From: Bacillota bacterium
GTDB lineage: Bacteria > Bacillota > DTU025 > MWDF01
Assembly (NCBI GenBank): GCA_029565935.1
Contig: JAKQNF010000012.1
Coordinates: 1-64,000, forward strand
Length of the DNA stretch: 64,000 bases
Direction: 5' to 3'
Shown: piece by piece, positions 115 to 63,403 of the stretch
How positions within the stretch are numbered: position 1 is the stretch's first letter
How the letters are laid out: each line of letters begins with the position of its first letter
Position numbers and translations under genes: made by a program
Notes under the pieces: model-generated
The model's input: only the letters and a program-made list of their open reading frames with translations
Database searches by the model: none
Told to the model about the DNA's origin: nothing

Positions 115-174
115 CTCATACACAAAATTCTACTTACTACCGCATATTATTGTCCTGATCCATTCGTTTCGGGT

Positions 175-1374
175 TCAGATCCTGCTCAATGCTTCTGTGA
201 AATCGGATACTATGTCCTGTTCCTGCTCTATGCCCACAGAGACCCTGACCAATCCGTCGGTTATGCCCAGCTTCAGTTTCTCGTCTTCGGACATGCTCCT
301 GTGCGAAGTCGAGGCGGGATGGCTGATCGTTGTCGCATAACTGCCAAGGCTCGGGACGAAAGCCGCCAGCGACAGGCTCCTTATCATCCCGTCCACCGCT
401 TCGCGTCCCCCGTCTAGCTCGAAGCTTAGCATGCCTCCGTAGCCTTCTTGCAGTAGCCTGGCCGCGGCGCAGGTCGGATTAGCGGCATCGAGGCCTGGGT
501 AATGCACGGCCGTCACCTTGTCCGAGCCCTTCAACGCCATCGCCAGGGCGAAGGCGTTGTCCGAATGCCTCTCCATCCTCACTCCCAGCGTCCTCACTCC
601 CCTAAGGGCCAGCCAAGCCTCGAACGGCGAGAGGACGGGTCCGAGAAGCGTCCTGGAATGTCTTATCGCCTCCAGCAGGCCTGGCGCGTCCACCTTATCG
701 CCGCCGACTGATACGGTCCCCGCCATGACGTCATCATGCCCGTTGATGTACTTGGTGCAGCTATGGATGACGATGTCCGCACCAAGCTCCAGGGGCCTCA
801 TCAGGACCGGTGTCGCGAACGTGTTGTCCACGGCGAGCAACGCCCCCGCTTCATGGGCGATGCTTGCCAGCGCAGGGATGTCGGCCACTTCCATAAGCGG
901 ATTCGATACGCTCTCACAGAAGAGTAATTTTACACCAGGTTCCATCGCGCCCTTGACGCCCTCGAGGTCGACGATGTCGACGAACCTCGCCCCTACCCCT
1001 CTTCTTGCGGAATCTTGCTCTATGAGCGTCTTGGTAGCGCCGTAGAGCACAGAAGCGGCCACGATGCGCTCACCATGCCCGAGCAGCGCATCCAGGACCA
1101 TGTTGGTCGCGGCCATGCCGGAGGATGCGGCCACCGTTCCGGTGGCTCCTTCGAGCGCGTCGATCGCCTCTTCGAAAGCCTCAACGCTCGGATTCGACAT
1201 CCTCGAGTATACATATCCTTTACTTCTGCCGGTCCACACATCCTCAGCCTGGTCGAGCGATCCGAACCTGAACACGGCCGATGCGTAGATTGGTGCCACC
1301 TCCGGCTCGCTCACCGATGGCCTGCGCGCGCTCCCAGCATGGGCCGCCATGCTCTTAGGATCCATATCCTTCAT
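175..1374 (-). CDS. Trans-sulfuration family PLP enzyme (methionine gamma-lyase/cystathionine lyase-like)
   Basis: This 399-residue protein belongs to the Cys/Met metabolism PLP-dependent family, which makes or breaks C-S bonds in cysteine, methionine and homocysteine metabolism in the cytosol. The PLP lysine is K208 in HSCTKYINGH. The ring-stacking and phosphate-binding segments are visible as YSRMSNPS (56-63), SSGMAA (84-89) and AVDN (181-184). Length is normal for the family. The start at 1374 follows GGAAGGGG. The gene lies alone, divergent from the nitroreductase and next to the IS end. Family members catalyse different reactions with very similar sequences, so gamma-lyase, cystathionine gamma-synthase, cystathionine lyase or O-acetylhomoserine sulfhydrylase cannot be separated here. 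Confidence 0.9.
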   Translation of the reverse strand: MKDMDPKSMAAHAGSARRPSVSEPEVAPIYASAVFRFGSLDQAEDVWTGRSKGYVYSRMSNPSVEAFEEAIDALEGATGTVAASSGMAATNMVLDALLGHGERIVAASVLYGATKTLIEQDSARRGVGARFVDIVDLEGVKGAMEPGVKLLFCESVSNPLMEVADIPALASIAHEAGALLAVDNTFATPVLMRPLELGADIVIHSCTKYINGHDDVMAGTVSVGGDKVDAPGLLEAIRHSRTLLGPVLSPFEAWLALRGVRTLGVRMERHSDNAFALAMALKGSDKVTAVHYPGLDAANPTCAAARLLQEGYGGMLSFELDGGREAVDGMIRSLSLAAFVPSLGSYATTISHPASTSHRSMSEDEKLKLGITDGLVRVSVGIEQEQDIVSDFTEALSRI

Positions 1375-4394: not shown

Positions 4395-4992
4395 AGCCGT
4401 GCTCTTCGGCCTTGCGGCAGGCCTTATGCTCGGAGGGAGCCTGAAGTCCCTCGCCAAGGCATCATTCAGGTGCCTTCCTTTGATATTCCTCGCGGCGGCG
4501 ATAGACTTCGCCATGTCTACGAAGCTCGGCGTCATGGCAGCTGCGCTCGGAGGATGGGCCGTGATCACAGCTACCTTGCTCCAGACGCTTCTGCTCCTGG
4601 TTTTCGTGCTGGGTAACATGGACAAGCCGCCATTGTGGCTGATAGGGCTGGGAGGCATGATGAACTCGGCGGCGATACTCGCAAACTCCGGAATGATGCC
4701 GATAAGCCCCCAGATACTGGTGCTGGCCCCGGATTCTCAATATACGCTCACGCTGCTTGCCGGCAAGGTTGCGAACTACACCCTGGCCAGCCCTGCGACG
4801 AAGCTCCTGTTCCTGTCCGACATAATCCCGTACAGGGGCTTTACCTTCTATATGATAAGCGCCGGCGACATGGTGACGTCCGCCGGGCTCATAATCCTTA
4901 TCATTTCCCTTATGCAAGCCTATAGCCCCAAGCACACTTTCTACCCGAGCAAGGTGTTCGACACGCTGGACGATCCACCGTCCAGCGACTGA
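4384..4992 (+). CDS. DUF5317-like integral membrane protein
   Basis: The protein has 202 residues with about five hydrophobic helices and a short polar C-terminal tail. Features resembling the DUF5317 family are the GGMMNSAAILANSGMMPIS segment near residue 90 and the conserved FLSDIIPYRGF near residue 140. Function is unknown. In other Firmicutes such proteins often accompany HD or HD-GYP proteins, and here it overlaps the HD-GYP gene by 11 bases. A link to the sensor part of that phosphodiesterase is a reasonable guess. It converges with rarA, leaving one base between their ends. Confidence 0.7.
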   Translation: MLFEAVLFGLAAGLMLGGSLKSLAKASFRCLPLIFLAAAIDFAMSTKLGVMAAALGGWAVITATLLQTLLLLVFVLGNMDKPPLWLIGLGGMMNSAAILANSGMMPISPQILVLAPDSQYTLTLLAGKVANYTLASPATKLLFLSDIIPYRGFTFYMISAGDMVTSAGLIILIISLMQAYSPKHTFYPSKVFDTLDDPPSSD

Positions 4993-6591: not shown

Positions 6592-6779
6592 GCAAGACCC
6601 CGCGATGCCGTATTGCGATGCTTTTCTTCCCTGTCCCCGACAGGTGGATGTCCCACTTTCAGCTTTTCGGATCCGCGACTTGTGCGGCATGCGAGCCACT
6701 GATCGATGAGGGCTTCCGTTTCTTAGCTTGTAGGAAGAAAGTCCCGTTGCAATACGCACACAGCAGGGTCAATCTCGCG
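6592..6779 (-). ncRNA. ssrS: Candidate 6S RNA
   Basis: The gap before rarA can fold into a long, interrupted rod of the 6S type. On the minus strand GACCC (6766-6770) pairs with GGGTC (6596-6600), CGTATTGC (6749-6756) with GCAATACG (6609-6616), and CTTTCTTCC (6733-6741) with GGAAGAAAAG (6621-6630). A central open region follows, then an apical hairpin CCGC/GCGG. An outer GCGA/TTGC pairing may extend the closing stem. The size, about 175-190 nt, and the long closing stem with bubble fit 6S RNA, which binds housekeeping RNA polymerase. In several Firmicutes 6S genes lie close to rarA. The ends are approximate and no covariance test was possible. Confidence 0.55.
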
Positions 6780-60599: not shown

Positions 60600-63023
60600 T
60601 CAGCCTATCACGATATTTACCATCTTACCCGGAATGACAACCGTCCTCTTGATCGTTCTCCCCTCAATTAACGAGGCGACCTTCTCGCTGGCCAAAGCGG
60701 CCTTCAGCAGCTCATCCTGGTCGATCCCTGCTGCGACCTTAACGACGTCCTTGAGCTTGCCGTTTACTTGTACCGGTACTTCAATCTCGTCTTCTTTCGC
60801 CTTTTCTGGATCGAAAACCGGCCAAGGCTCATGTGCCAGGCCCTTCTTGTATCCCCTGGCTTCAAAGAGCTCTTCGGCTATGTGCGGGGCGAACGGTGCC
60901 ATCAACTTCACGAACGCGTCCCAGTGGGAAGGCTCTATGCGCTCCTGCTTACCAAACCAGTTGGCAAGGCTCATGAGCTGGGCCAAAGCGGTATTATACT
61001 TCATCTCCTCGATGTCTTCGCCGACTTTCCTTATCGTCTGGTGGACAATCCTGTCCCCATCCTGCAAGTCGTCACTCTTCGAGGGCATAACCTTGTACTG
61101 GAGGTCCCATACCCTGTAAAGGAATCTCTGCATGCCTACCAATCCCTGTGTAGACCATGGTATCGGCTGGTCGAACGCTCCCATGAACAGCTCGAACAAC
61201 CTGAACGAATCAGCACCGTACCTGTCTACCATCTCGTCAGGATTGATGACGTTGCCTCTCGATTTTGACATCTTCTCGTTGTCTTCGCCGAGGACCAGCC
61301 CATGGGAGGTTCTCTTGCTGTATGGTTCCAGCGTAGGGACAATTCCTATGTCATAAAGGAACTTATACCAGAACCTAGAGTAAAGTAGATGCAGCGTGGT
61401 GTGCTCCATGCCGCCGTTGTACCAGTCTACCGGCATCCAGTAGTCCAACGCTTGCCTAGAGGCAAGTTCATTCTTGTTCTTCGGATCTGCGTACCTGAGG
61501 AAGTACCAGGATGACCCTGCCCAGTTTGGCATGGTGTCCGTTTCCCTTTTCGCCGGTCCTCCGCAACACGGGCAAGTTGTGTCCACCCAGTCCTTCATCT
61601 GCGCCAGCGGAGATTCTCCGGTCTCCGTGGTCTGGTACTTCTCAACCTCGGGCAGCTTCAAAGGAAGCTCCTCCTCAGGTATGGGTACCCAGCCGCACTT
61701 ATTGCACTCGACCATGGGTATAGGCTCTCCCCAGTACCTCTGCCTGGAGAACACCCAGTCCCTTAGCTTATAGTTGGTCTTCTGCTTACCGATGCCGCGT
61801 CCTTCAAGGGACTTGGTCATGGCGAGTATCGCATCTTGTACATTCAGCCCGTTGAGGAAGCCGGAGTTTATCATCGTGCCGGTCTCAGTGGATGTATGAG
61901 GACCGTCATTCAAATCGCCGCCTGATATGACCTCGACTATCGGCAACCCGAAGTTCTTCGCAAACCTCCAGTCCCTGTCATCATGCCCGGGTACTGCCAT
62001 GATAGCGCCGGTACCGTACGAGGCCAGCACGTAGTCAGAAGTCCATACCGGGATGTTCTTGCCGGTAGCAGGGTTCACGCAGTAGACTCCCTTAATCTGG
62101 CATCCGGTGACTTCCTTTGCCACCTCGGTACGTTCGAAGTCGGACTTCTTGGCGGCAGCCTCGCAGTAGGCTTTTACTTCGCTCGGATTGTCGCACATCT
62201 TAAGAAAACTGGCTAAGTAGGGATGTTCAGGGGATACGACCATATAGGTGGCTCCGAACATAGTATCGGGCCTGGTCGTGAAGACCTTCAAGTTCATGCC
62301 CCTGTTCGTCCCGGCTACCTCGAAGTCCACCTCGGCGCCGACTGACTTGCCTATCCAGTTTACCTGCTGCATCTTTATCTTGTTCCAGTAATTTACTGTA
62401 TCCAGGTCGTTAAGGAGCCTTTCCGCATATTCTGTGATCTTCAGCATCCACTGCTTCTTTACTTTCCTGACCACAATGCCGCCGCATCTTTCGCAGACGC
62501 CTCCCACGACCTCTTCGTTGGCTAGCCCTATCTTGCAGCTGGTGCACCAGTTTATCGGAATCTCGGCCTTATAGGCGAGCCCTTTCTCCCACAGCTTCAG
62601 GAATATCCATTGCGTCCATTTATAGTATTCGGGATCAGTCGTATCTACTTCACGGTCCCAATCGAAGCTGAAGCCCAGCTTCTTGAGCTGGCTGCGGTAT
62701 CTCGCGATGTTGCGCTTCGTCACGACGGCCGGATGTTCCCCGGTCTTTATGGCGTGGTTTTCGGTCGGAAGTCCGAAGGCATCCCAGCCGATCGGGTAGA
62801 GGACGTTATACCCTTGCATGCGGCGCTTCCTTGCTAGAGTATCCAGCGCAGTATATGAGCGCGGATGCCCTACGTGCAGGCCCGCTCCCGATGGATATGG
62901 GAACTCTATCAGCACGTAGTACTTGGGCAGCGTATAGTCGTCGACCGCGGCGAAGCACTTGGTCTCATCCCATCTGCGCTGCCATTTCTCCTCGATCGAC
63001 CTGAAATCGTACCTCTCGGCCAA
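60600..63023 (-). CDS. leuS: Leucyl-tRNA synthetase
   Basis: LeuRS charges tRNA-Leu. It is a class I enzyme of 807 residues with the HIGH signature as HVGHPRSYTALD (about 46-57), two zinc-type Cys clusters (CTSCKIG...CERCG near 167-187 and CNKCG...CPCCGG), a CP1 editing domain (about 220-420, with the TTRPDT segment) and KMSKSRGNVI near 582. The TTG at 63023 has GAGGAGGG 7 bases upstream. It is controlled by the T-box leader just before it, in which a tRNA-Ala gene is embedded. Confidence 0.97.
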   Translation of the reverse strand: MAERYDFRSIEEKWQRRWDETKCFAAVDDYTLPKYYVLIEFPYPSGAGLHVGHPRSYTALDTLARKRRMQGYNVLYPIGWDAFGLPTENHAIKTGEHPAVVTKRNIARYRSQLKKLGFSFDWDREVDTTDPEYYKWTQWIFLKLWEKGLAYKAEIPINWCTSCKIGLANEEVVGGVCERCGGIVVRKVKKQWMLKITEYAERLLNDLDTVNYWNKIKMQQVNWIGKSVGAEVDFEVAGTNRGMNLKVFTTRPDTMFGATYMVVSPEHPYLASFLKMCDNPSEVKAYCEAAAKKSDFERTEVAKEVTGCQIKGVYCVNPATGKNIPVWTSDYVLASYGTGAIMAVPGHDDRDWRFAKNFGLPIVEVISGGDLNDGPHTSTETGTMINSGFLNGLNVQDAILAMTKSLEGRGIGKQKTNYKLRDWVFSRQRYWGEPIPMVECNKCGWVPIPEEELPLKLPEVEKYQTTETGESPLAQMKDWVDTTCPCCGGPAKRETDTMPNWAGSSWYFLRYADPKNKNELASRQALDYWMPVDWYNGGMEHTTLHLLYSRFWYKFLYDIGIVPTLEPYSKRTSHGLVLGEDNEKMSKSRGNVINPDEMVDRYGADSFRLFELFMGAFDQPIPWSTQGLVGMQRFLYRVWDLQYKVMPSKSDDLQDGDRIVHQTIRKVGEDIEEMKYNTALAQLMSLANWFGKQERIEPSHWDAFVKLMAPFAPHIAEELFEARGYKKGLAHEPWPVFDPEKAKEDEIEVPVQVNGKLKDVVKVAAGIDQDELLKAALASEKVASLIEGRTIKRTVVIPGKMVNIVIG

Positions 63024-63043: not shown

Positions 63044-63075
63044 AAAAAAACGCCCCTGGCATCAAGCCAGGGGCG
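63044..63075 (-). terminator. T-box terminator before leuS
   Basis: CGCCCCTGGC pairs with GCCAGGGGCG around a 5-base loop, followed by seven T residues on the minus strand. It competes with the antiterminator built on the T-box sequence and may also end a short RNA containing the tRNA-Ala. Confidence 0.93.
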
Positions 63076-63113
63076 AAAGTACGCGGTACCACCCTGTTCA
63101 CGGTGCTTTAATT

Positions 63114-63189
63114 TGGTGGAGCTGAGGGGGATCGAACCCCTGACCTCCTGAATGCCATTCAGGCGCTCTCCCAGCTGAGCTACAACCCC
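63114..63189 (-). tRNA. tRNA-Ala (anticodon GGC)
   Basis: The 76 bases fold as a complete cloverleaf: a 7-bp acceptor stem with the alanine identity pair G3-U70, D arm GCTC/GAGC, anticodon stem CCTGA/TCAGG with loop ATGGCAT (anticodon GGC), T arm AGGGG-TTCGATC-CCCCT, discriminator A and encoded CCA. Nothing suggests decay. It is read in the sense direction inside the leuS T-box leader, 18 bases before the T-box motif, and shares the leuS promoter. Confidence 0.96.
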
Positions 63190-63373
63190 ACATAAGCACA
63201 GTCTCGTCGCCCTTAACGAGGGCATCGTCCCTGCTTACTCTTTTCAGCAGGACCGCTCACGGGCGAGTCTCGGCCCAACCGTCGGCCATTCACACCGAAC
63301 ATGGCCTCTCTTTGGCGGTTTGATCTCCGTTGCTCCCGGTCATCACGTTACTATTTTGATGTCAACAGGAGTA

Positions 63374-63403
63374 ATTATACTAATGCCCTTGCCATCCCGT
63401 CAA
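63374..63403 (-). promoter_or_regulatory. Promoter of the T-box/tRNA-Ala/leuS transcript
   Basis: TTGACG (63398-63403) and a perfect TATAAT (63374-63379) on the minus strand, 18 bases apart. The start near 63367 places all of Stem I in the RNA. Confidence 0.8.

Follow-up and report, generated by a model that had tools for sequence, protein, structure and literature searches.

A leucine T-box leader with a tRNA-Ala(GGC) gene in its predicted Stem III: a probable dual-use transcript

T-boxes are regulatory RNAs that bind tRNA in trans. The leader of leuS, the leucyl-tRNA synthetase gene, in the DNA shown above has the parts of such a T-box, and it also holds a complete tRNA gene for another amino acid. 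What is a tRNA gene doing inside a riboswitch, and how could one transcript serve as both? The DNA analysed, called the window from here on, is a stretch of 64,000 nucleotides from a Bacillota bacterium. A sequence-only reading of it had described the layout, a single promoter and the output of tRNA, and these parts stand. Its idea of the linker geometry did not hold, and the layout is not restricted to one genome.

All features of the leader lie on the minus strand. A predicted sigma-70 promoter, TTGACG-18 nt-TATAAT at 63374-63403, is the sole promoter-like site in it. T-box Stem I follows at 63254-63352 (positions 1-104 of the Rfam model RF00230), with the leucine specifier codon CUC at 63265-63267, in the context GAGA-CTC-GCC; this codon pairs with the tRNA-Leu anticodon GAG. 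The RF00230 alignment then places Stem II and the IIA/B region, including the conserved CGTTA, at 63211-63253. The 5’ arm of Stem III, ACTGTGCTT, is found at 63194-63202, and its 3’ arm, AAGCACCGT, at 63100-63108, followed by GAA. The arms form 8 of 9 pairs, and the helix is backed by covariation across homologues and by the MFE fold. Between them, in the Stem III loop, sits a perfect tRNA-Ala(GGC) with encoded CCA (63114-63189), recognised by ARAGORN and by RF00005 with 62.8 bits.

Beyond Stem III comes the antiterminator with the T-box sequence AGGGTGGTACCGCG (63068-63096, from the RF00230 alignment), a motif that is conserved in homologues. It has a UGGU bulge at 63088-63091, within GGGTGGTACCGCG. 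The discriminator base of tRNA-Leu is A73, and in the window the U of the bulge suits this A73 of the effector tRNA. The intrinsic terminator at 63044-63075 consists of a 10-bp hairpin (63051-63075) and seven T’s, and overlaps the 3’ arm of the antiterminator. Hairpin and antiterminator share CCCCT, which makes them mutually exclusive; folding of 63044-63096 gives a z-score of -4.1. The 807-aa open reading frame of leuS (60600-63023) starts 20 nt past the T run.

RF00230 aligns over its full length (model 1-219) to 63066-63352 of the minus strand, with 78.9 bits and an E value of 2.6e-17. In the alignment the Stem III loop is enlarged by 85 inserted nt, which include the tRNA. Stem I thus passes the T-box model, and the candidate CTC specifier of the sequence-only reading stands. 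The score is below the Rfam gathering cut-off of 93, while homologues with the same insert reach 96-142 bits. Because many homologous elements score above 93, the shortfall reflects divergence and the insert, and not a missing fold. The T-box fold is absent from a simple MFE fold of the whole window leader. Elsewhere in the window, 6S RNA is recognised at 6593-6772 of the minus strand (RF00013, 63.7 bits).

Could such a layout arise by chance, or from a faulty assembly? Genomes were searched with a generic pattern, any tRNA ending in CCA with a T-box motif no more than about 70 nt further on, and with the reversed pattern as control. In the phylum this matches 79 of 399 genomes, against 1 of 399 for the control. 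ARAGORN finds Ala-GGC at every resolved embedded tRNA among the phylum matches, and LeuS comes next in nearly all. Other tRNAs in T-boxes were considered and set aside, as the phylum pattern gave Ala-GGC only. In a DNA search of 60 relatives, the two genomes of the same genus match along the entire leader (93% and 79%), and further genomes of the order have the tRNA together with the T-box motif. Given this conservation within the genus, and the recurrence in 79 genomes versus 1, the layout is not due to chance. An assembly join inside the leader, a concern raised earlier, is rejected, since the layout occurs in many independent genomes, seven of them single-contig (G026, G032, G058, G080, G109, G267, G277).

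All 12 genomes examined from the order have several T-boxes. Among 41 T-box motifs from loci of the order, 10 adjoin an upstream tRNA, all ten Ala-GGC; the loci were partly preselected as matches, so this is not a rate. No other tRNA was found within 120 nt upstream of these 41 motifs.

The same pattern finds at least 119 stretches in GTDB species genomes, mostly tRNA-Ala(GGC) with leuS downstream. The phyla among the matches listed are Bacillota, Chloroflexota (18 of 151 genomes), Thermomicrobiota, Coprothermobacterota, Caldisericota, Atribacterota, Armatimonadota and Actinomycetota. Lys, Glu, Gln, Pro and similar tRNAs also appear among the matches listed, without leuS downstream, and look like chance. 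A T-box covariance match spans the tRNA in 20 of 20 sampled loci of the phylum, and in 9 of 10 further loci from other phyla and odd cases; RF00230 scores of homologues range from 53 to 142 bits. The spread over several phyla suggests that the arrangement is old, and the layout is clearly not peculiar to one genome.

Where exactly does the tRNA sit? The T-box discriminator motif RRRNG-Stem III-AA has been published (PMC7583486, PMC7778990). The usual order in 154 elements is CGTTA, RRRNG, 5’ arm, tRNA, 3’ arm, AA, 2-4 nt and GGGTGGTACCRCG. This places the tRNA at the position of the Stem III loop, and by this alignment it stands in for the apical loop. In the window genus the discriminator AA is present and the 5’ purine string is imperfect (ACGAG); the full motif is clear in most homologues. 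At this position, tRNA-less leuS T-boxes simply have a normal Stem III loop, which is short in most of them.

The two arms belong together. Arms paired with their own partner have a mean score of 9.8, versus 1.2 when arms are swapped between loci. Six of six pairs form in 56 of 108 loci and five of six in a further 33, making 89 loci with 5 or 6. The same positions are occupied by G-C, A-T, T-A and C-G alternatives, and many changes are compensatory. In simple folding, a helix encloses the tRNA in 132 of 140 cases, and it is also there in the MFE fold of the window. The tRNA had been proposed as a rigid linker between sensor and switch, which does not fit a tRNA at the tip of Stem III with covarying arms around it. 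Because the tRNA replaces the apical loop and the arms covary, the uncut leader can, on this comparative evidence, take the normal T-box fold, with the tRNA as a side branch.

Families f24 and f80 (L073-L080, L101-L105) have seemingly compact leuS T-boxes without Stem II, with the tRNA-Ala still in Stem III. In these leaders Stem I ends about 25-30 nt before Stem III.

The embedded tRNA looks fit for use. Of 154 distinct Ala-GGC elements, one (L170) is a chance match. The other 153 all have the GGC anticodon of tRNA-Ala, A73, seven acceptor pairs and G3:U70. All 153 also encode CCA, which the search pattern itself demanded, and the main search therefore undercounts embedded tRNAs. One leuS T-box (L369, in genome G019) holds a tRNA-Ala(GGC) without a full encoded CCA, so CCA is not universal. 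Within the window genus the tRNA hardly varies: identity is 75/76 and 74/76, and one pair of the anticodon stem differs at both of its positions. Stem I-II, by comparison, falls to 114/149.

Twelve of 15 genomes tested yielded no tRNA-Ala(GGC) gene besides the embedded one. These 12 include the window genome, with 44 tRNA matches in total, and seven near-complete single-contig genomes. Ktedonobacteria, and a few other carriers, have two Ala-GGC genes. That no other Ala-GGC gene was found strongly suggests that, in vivo, the embedded tRNA would be cut free and aminoacylated with alanine.

Several Chloroflexota have a further tRNA gene, Ala(CGC), immediately before the leuS T-box that bears tRNA-Ala(GGC) (L163, L168, L181, L231, L233, L234, L235, L252). 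Most of these Ala(CGC) genes encode no CCA.

The specifier is as constant as the tRNA. At least 148 of 153 homologous elements have CTC, in a GA(A/G)-CTC-RCC context, where chance would give 11.5%. In the window CTC is followed by GCC, the codon of the embedded tRNA (CTC-GCC at 63262-63267). This is so in 112 of 150 elements with a tRNA and in 9 of 22 tRNA-less leuS T-boxes, a comparison that ignores relatedness. GCC also trails other specifiers in the order of the window. As a second specifier it is a weak lead, and it may simply take part in Stem I pairing.

Does the tRNA have a promoter of its own? In homologues a near-consensus sigma-70 promoter precedes the tRNA, mostly by 140-220 nt. In 102 of 141 it deviates from the consensus at no more than one of 12 positions (shuffled mean 3.8). 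Closer to the tRNA, promoter-like sites are not in excess across homologues, neither in the final 100 nt nor between Stem I and the tRNA, and a separate tRNA promoter is rejected on that ground. The one candidate for such a site is TTGTCG-17-TATAAT in Ktedonobacteria. CCA and the T-box sequence are mostly 10-30 nt apart, which, going by length, leaves no room for a promoter and another Stem I. The earlier claim of one promoter agrees with all of this.

The reading that fits best, and that is held to be probable, is a dual-use leader: a leucine T-box whose Stem III loop is a tRNA-Ala(GGC) gene. It rests on anatomy, conservation, pairing, specifier, promoter position and copy number. From these, antitermination by tRNA-Leu, processing, and a switch decision ahead of excision can be inferred. 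A single promoter would drive the whole leader. RNA polymerase would make Stem I with CUC, then the Stem III 5’ arm, the tRNA-Ala, which folds, the 3’ arm, and finally the antiterminator/terminator switch. Control by leucine would follow from membership of the T-box class. With charged tRNA-Leu(GAG), transcription would terminate, and the short RNA would be a tRNA-Ala precursor that ends at the T-box terminator. With uncharged tRNA-Leu(GAG), RNA polymerase would read through into leuS. The switch decision would come before the tRNA is excised.

The tRNA precedes the terminator, and so every transcript would carry it, whether or not leuS is read, as the sequence-only reading had noted. Either way, RNase P and 3’ processing would free tRNA-Ala(GGC), of which no further copy was found in most sampled carriers. 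If every transcript bears a tRNA that the genome needs, the transcript would have to be processed; cutting of the leader by RNase P is very likely, given that this is the sole Ala-GGC gene found in the window genome. The leader RNA that other T-boxes waste when leucine is replete would here supply the tRNA pool. Several observations count against dual use. Economy alone would allow any tRNA in any T-box, and so does not account for the constant pairing of tRNA-Ala(GGC) with leuS; the window element scores below the Rfam cut-off; and the two parts also occur apart, as described below.

In a bolder reading, an ancient class of riboswitch doubles as a tRNA precursor: by cutting tRNA-Ala(GGC) out of Stem III, RNase P would carry out one step of the switching, and leuS expression would be tied to the maturation of the tRNA and perhaps to the supply of alanine tRNA. 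This is a tentative and rather improbable proposal. A related and unlikely explanation treats excision as regulation: RNase P and 3’ processing would part sensor from switch at a set time, as a timer or irreversible step, or would give leuS mRNA a different 5’ end and thereby alter its stability. In favour of this, the tRNA is inserted at the same point and ahead of the same gene from phylum to phylum, which goes beyond the needs of cotranscription. Condon reportedly claimed, in the title of a 1996 paper, that cleavage of the thrS leader affects induction. The leader is a precedent from B. subtilis, where RNase J1/J2 cleaves it immediately before the terminator (PMC3997798).

Two observations speak against regulation by excision. 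RNase P is slowed when a leader G-2U-1 pairs with ACCA (PMC9433436), and G-2U-1 is present in 68 of 132 embedded tRNAs versus 45 of 166 others. Yet most non-embedded Ala-GGC genes share it, and a slow-RNase-P leader as an adaptation is rejected. The Stem III arm duplex of the window has -9.5 kcal/mol, and by this model the arms could keep the halves joined for a time after excision. Stem III is, however, not significantly longer with a tRNA than in tRNA-less leuS T-boxes (p 0.12), so a Stem III lengthened to hold the cut halves is also rejected.

How tightly are the parts coupled? A sample of 90 leuS leaders from the phylum contains 33 T-boxes (including L317, with a slightly altered motif); 8 of these have tRNA-Ala and 25 have no tRNA. 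Two loci, L327 and L330, consist of promoter, tRNA-Ala(GGC), terminator and leuS, with no T-box; they are probably derived forms that lost it. L061 (G379) has promoter, Stem III arms, tRNA-Ala and T-box motif, with no recognisable Stem I and no T-box model match, a probable case of Stem I lost and tRNA kept. Since the tRNA persists without a T-box in L327 and L330, and 25 of 33 T-boxes do without a tRNA, neither part needs the other.

Mapped on the LeuS tree, the trait takes 23 changes. Many of the 209 rows were chosen as carriers, so that gain and loss are indistinguishable. Identical tRNA, specifier, insertion point and gene throughout argue for a single origin, followed by vertical descent with losses, transfer together with leuS, or both. 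Nearly every genome of the phylum sample has one LeuS-like match. LeuS of the window genus (60600-63023 in the window; L281, L070, L071) falls in a different clade from that of most leader-bearing genomes, and the other members of its clade have no tRNA. It appears that in this genus leuS was replaced beneath a retained leader, or that the leader moved.

A tRNA that entered the leader once and was kept by drift and shared ancestry, in a permissive Stem III loop, would explain the patchiness and the loose coupling of L327, L330 and L061. Such an accident is very improbable: covarying Stem III arms in several phyla, and a leader retained over the leuS of another clade, point to active maintenance of both parts. 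A purely structural use, the tRNA being a stable cap that helps Stem III and the discriminator to fold, with tRNA release minor, would fit its exact place at the tip of a conserved helix and the unexplained insertions in T-box domains, Stem III included, that a 2020 review treats as an open question (PMC7583486), but it is just as far-fetched, as a cap needs no invariant anticodon, G3:U70, A73 or encoded CCA, the gene is the only Ala-GGC copy found, and short loops suffice in tRNA-less leuS T-boxes.

The surroundings of the leader vary somewhat. Desulfotomaculum-like genomes (L174, L108, L110) have a gene between leader and leuS that reads from its sequence as an AMP-binding acyl-CoA ligase; the leader-leuS spacing in L166, L195, L215 and L240 suggests the same. 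Just past the T-box terminator, L065 has group II intron sequence (135-1374, minus strand, Rfam matches), and L083 has an intron-maturase-like ORF (4484-4762).

If the dual-use reading holds, the same RNA is a T-box and gives rise to a different tRNA, in many cases the sole tRNA with that anticodon in the cell. A working riboswitch would therefore have to undergo cleavage by RNase P and 3’ processing. This challenges the view of riboswitch leaders as single-purpose, and Stem III is seen to accept a full tRNA. The system also allows one to test cleanly whether a riboswitch decides before its RNA is processed. Carriers include the cultured genera Desulfofundulus, Desulfotruncus, Ktedonobacter and Dictyobacter, which makes the arrangement testable.

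The sequence-only reading knew of no T-box containing a tRNA gene, and none was found described in the open literature; subscription surveys were outside this search, so prior notice is possible. tRNA genes in T-boxes are unmentioned in a 2008 survey that covers leuS T-boxes (PMC2494555) and in the 2020 review (PMC7583486). Where sections of the TBDB paper speak of a ‘tRNA gene’, this concerns finding cognate tRNAs and not insertions (PMC7778990).

How does the leader compare with known systems? It shares with the leuS T-boxes (CUC) of RF00230 a Stem I, in most cases Stem II and IIA/B, Stem III, the UGGU antiterminator, a competing terminator and the aminoacyl-tRNA synthetase downstream. It differs from them in having a complete tRNA gene for another amino acid in place of the Stem III loop. 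The forms of L327 and L330 have the same tRNA and gene, but there Stem I, Stem III and the antiterminator are gone. tRNA-mRNA cotranscripts processed by RNase P, with the tRNA upstream of a protein gene, have the same order; here, however, the tRNA is nested in a riboswitch fold, before an attenuator. The thrS and thrZ leaders of B. subtilis are alike in being T-box leaders cut upstream of the terminator (by RNase J1/J2; PMC3997798). Their cut frees no other functional RNA, whereas here the excised piece would be a tRNA.
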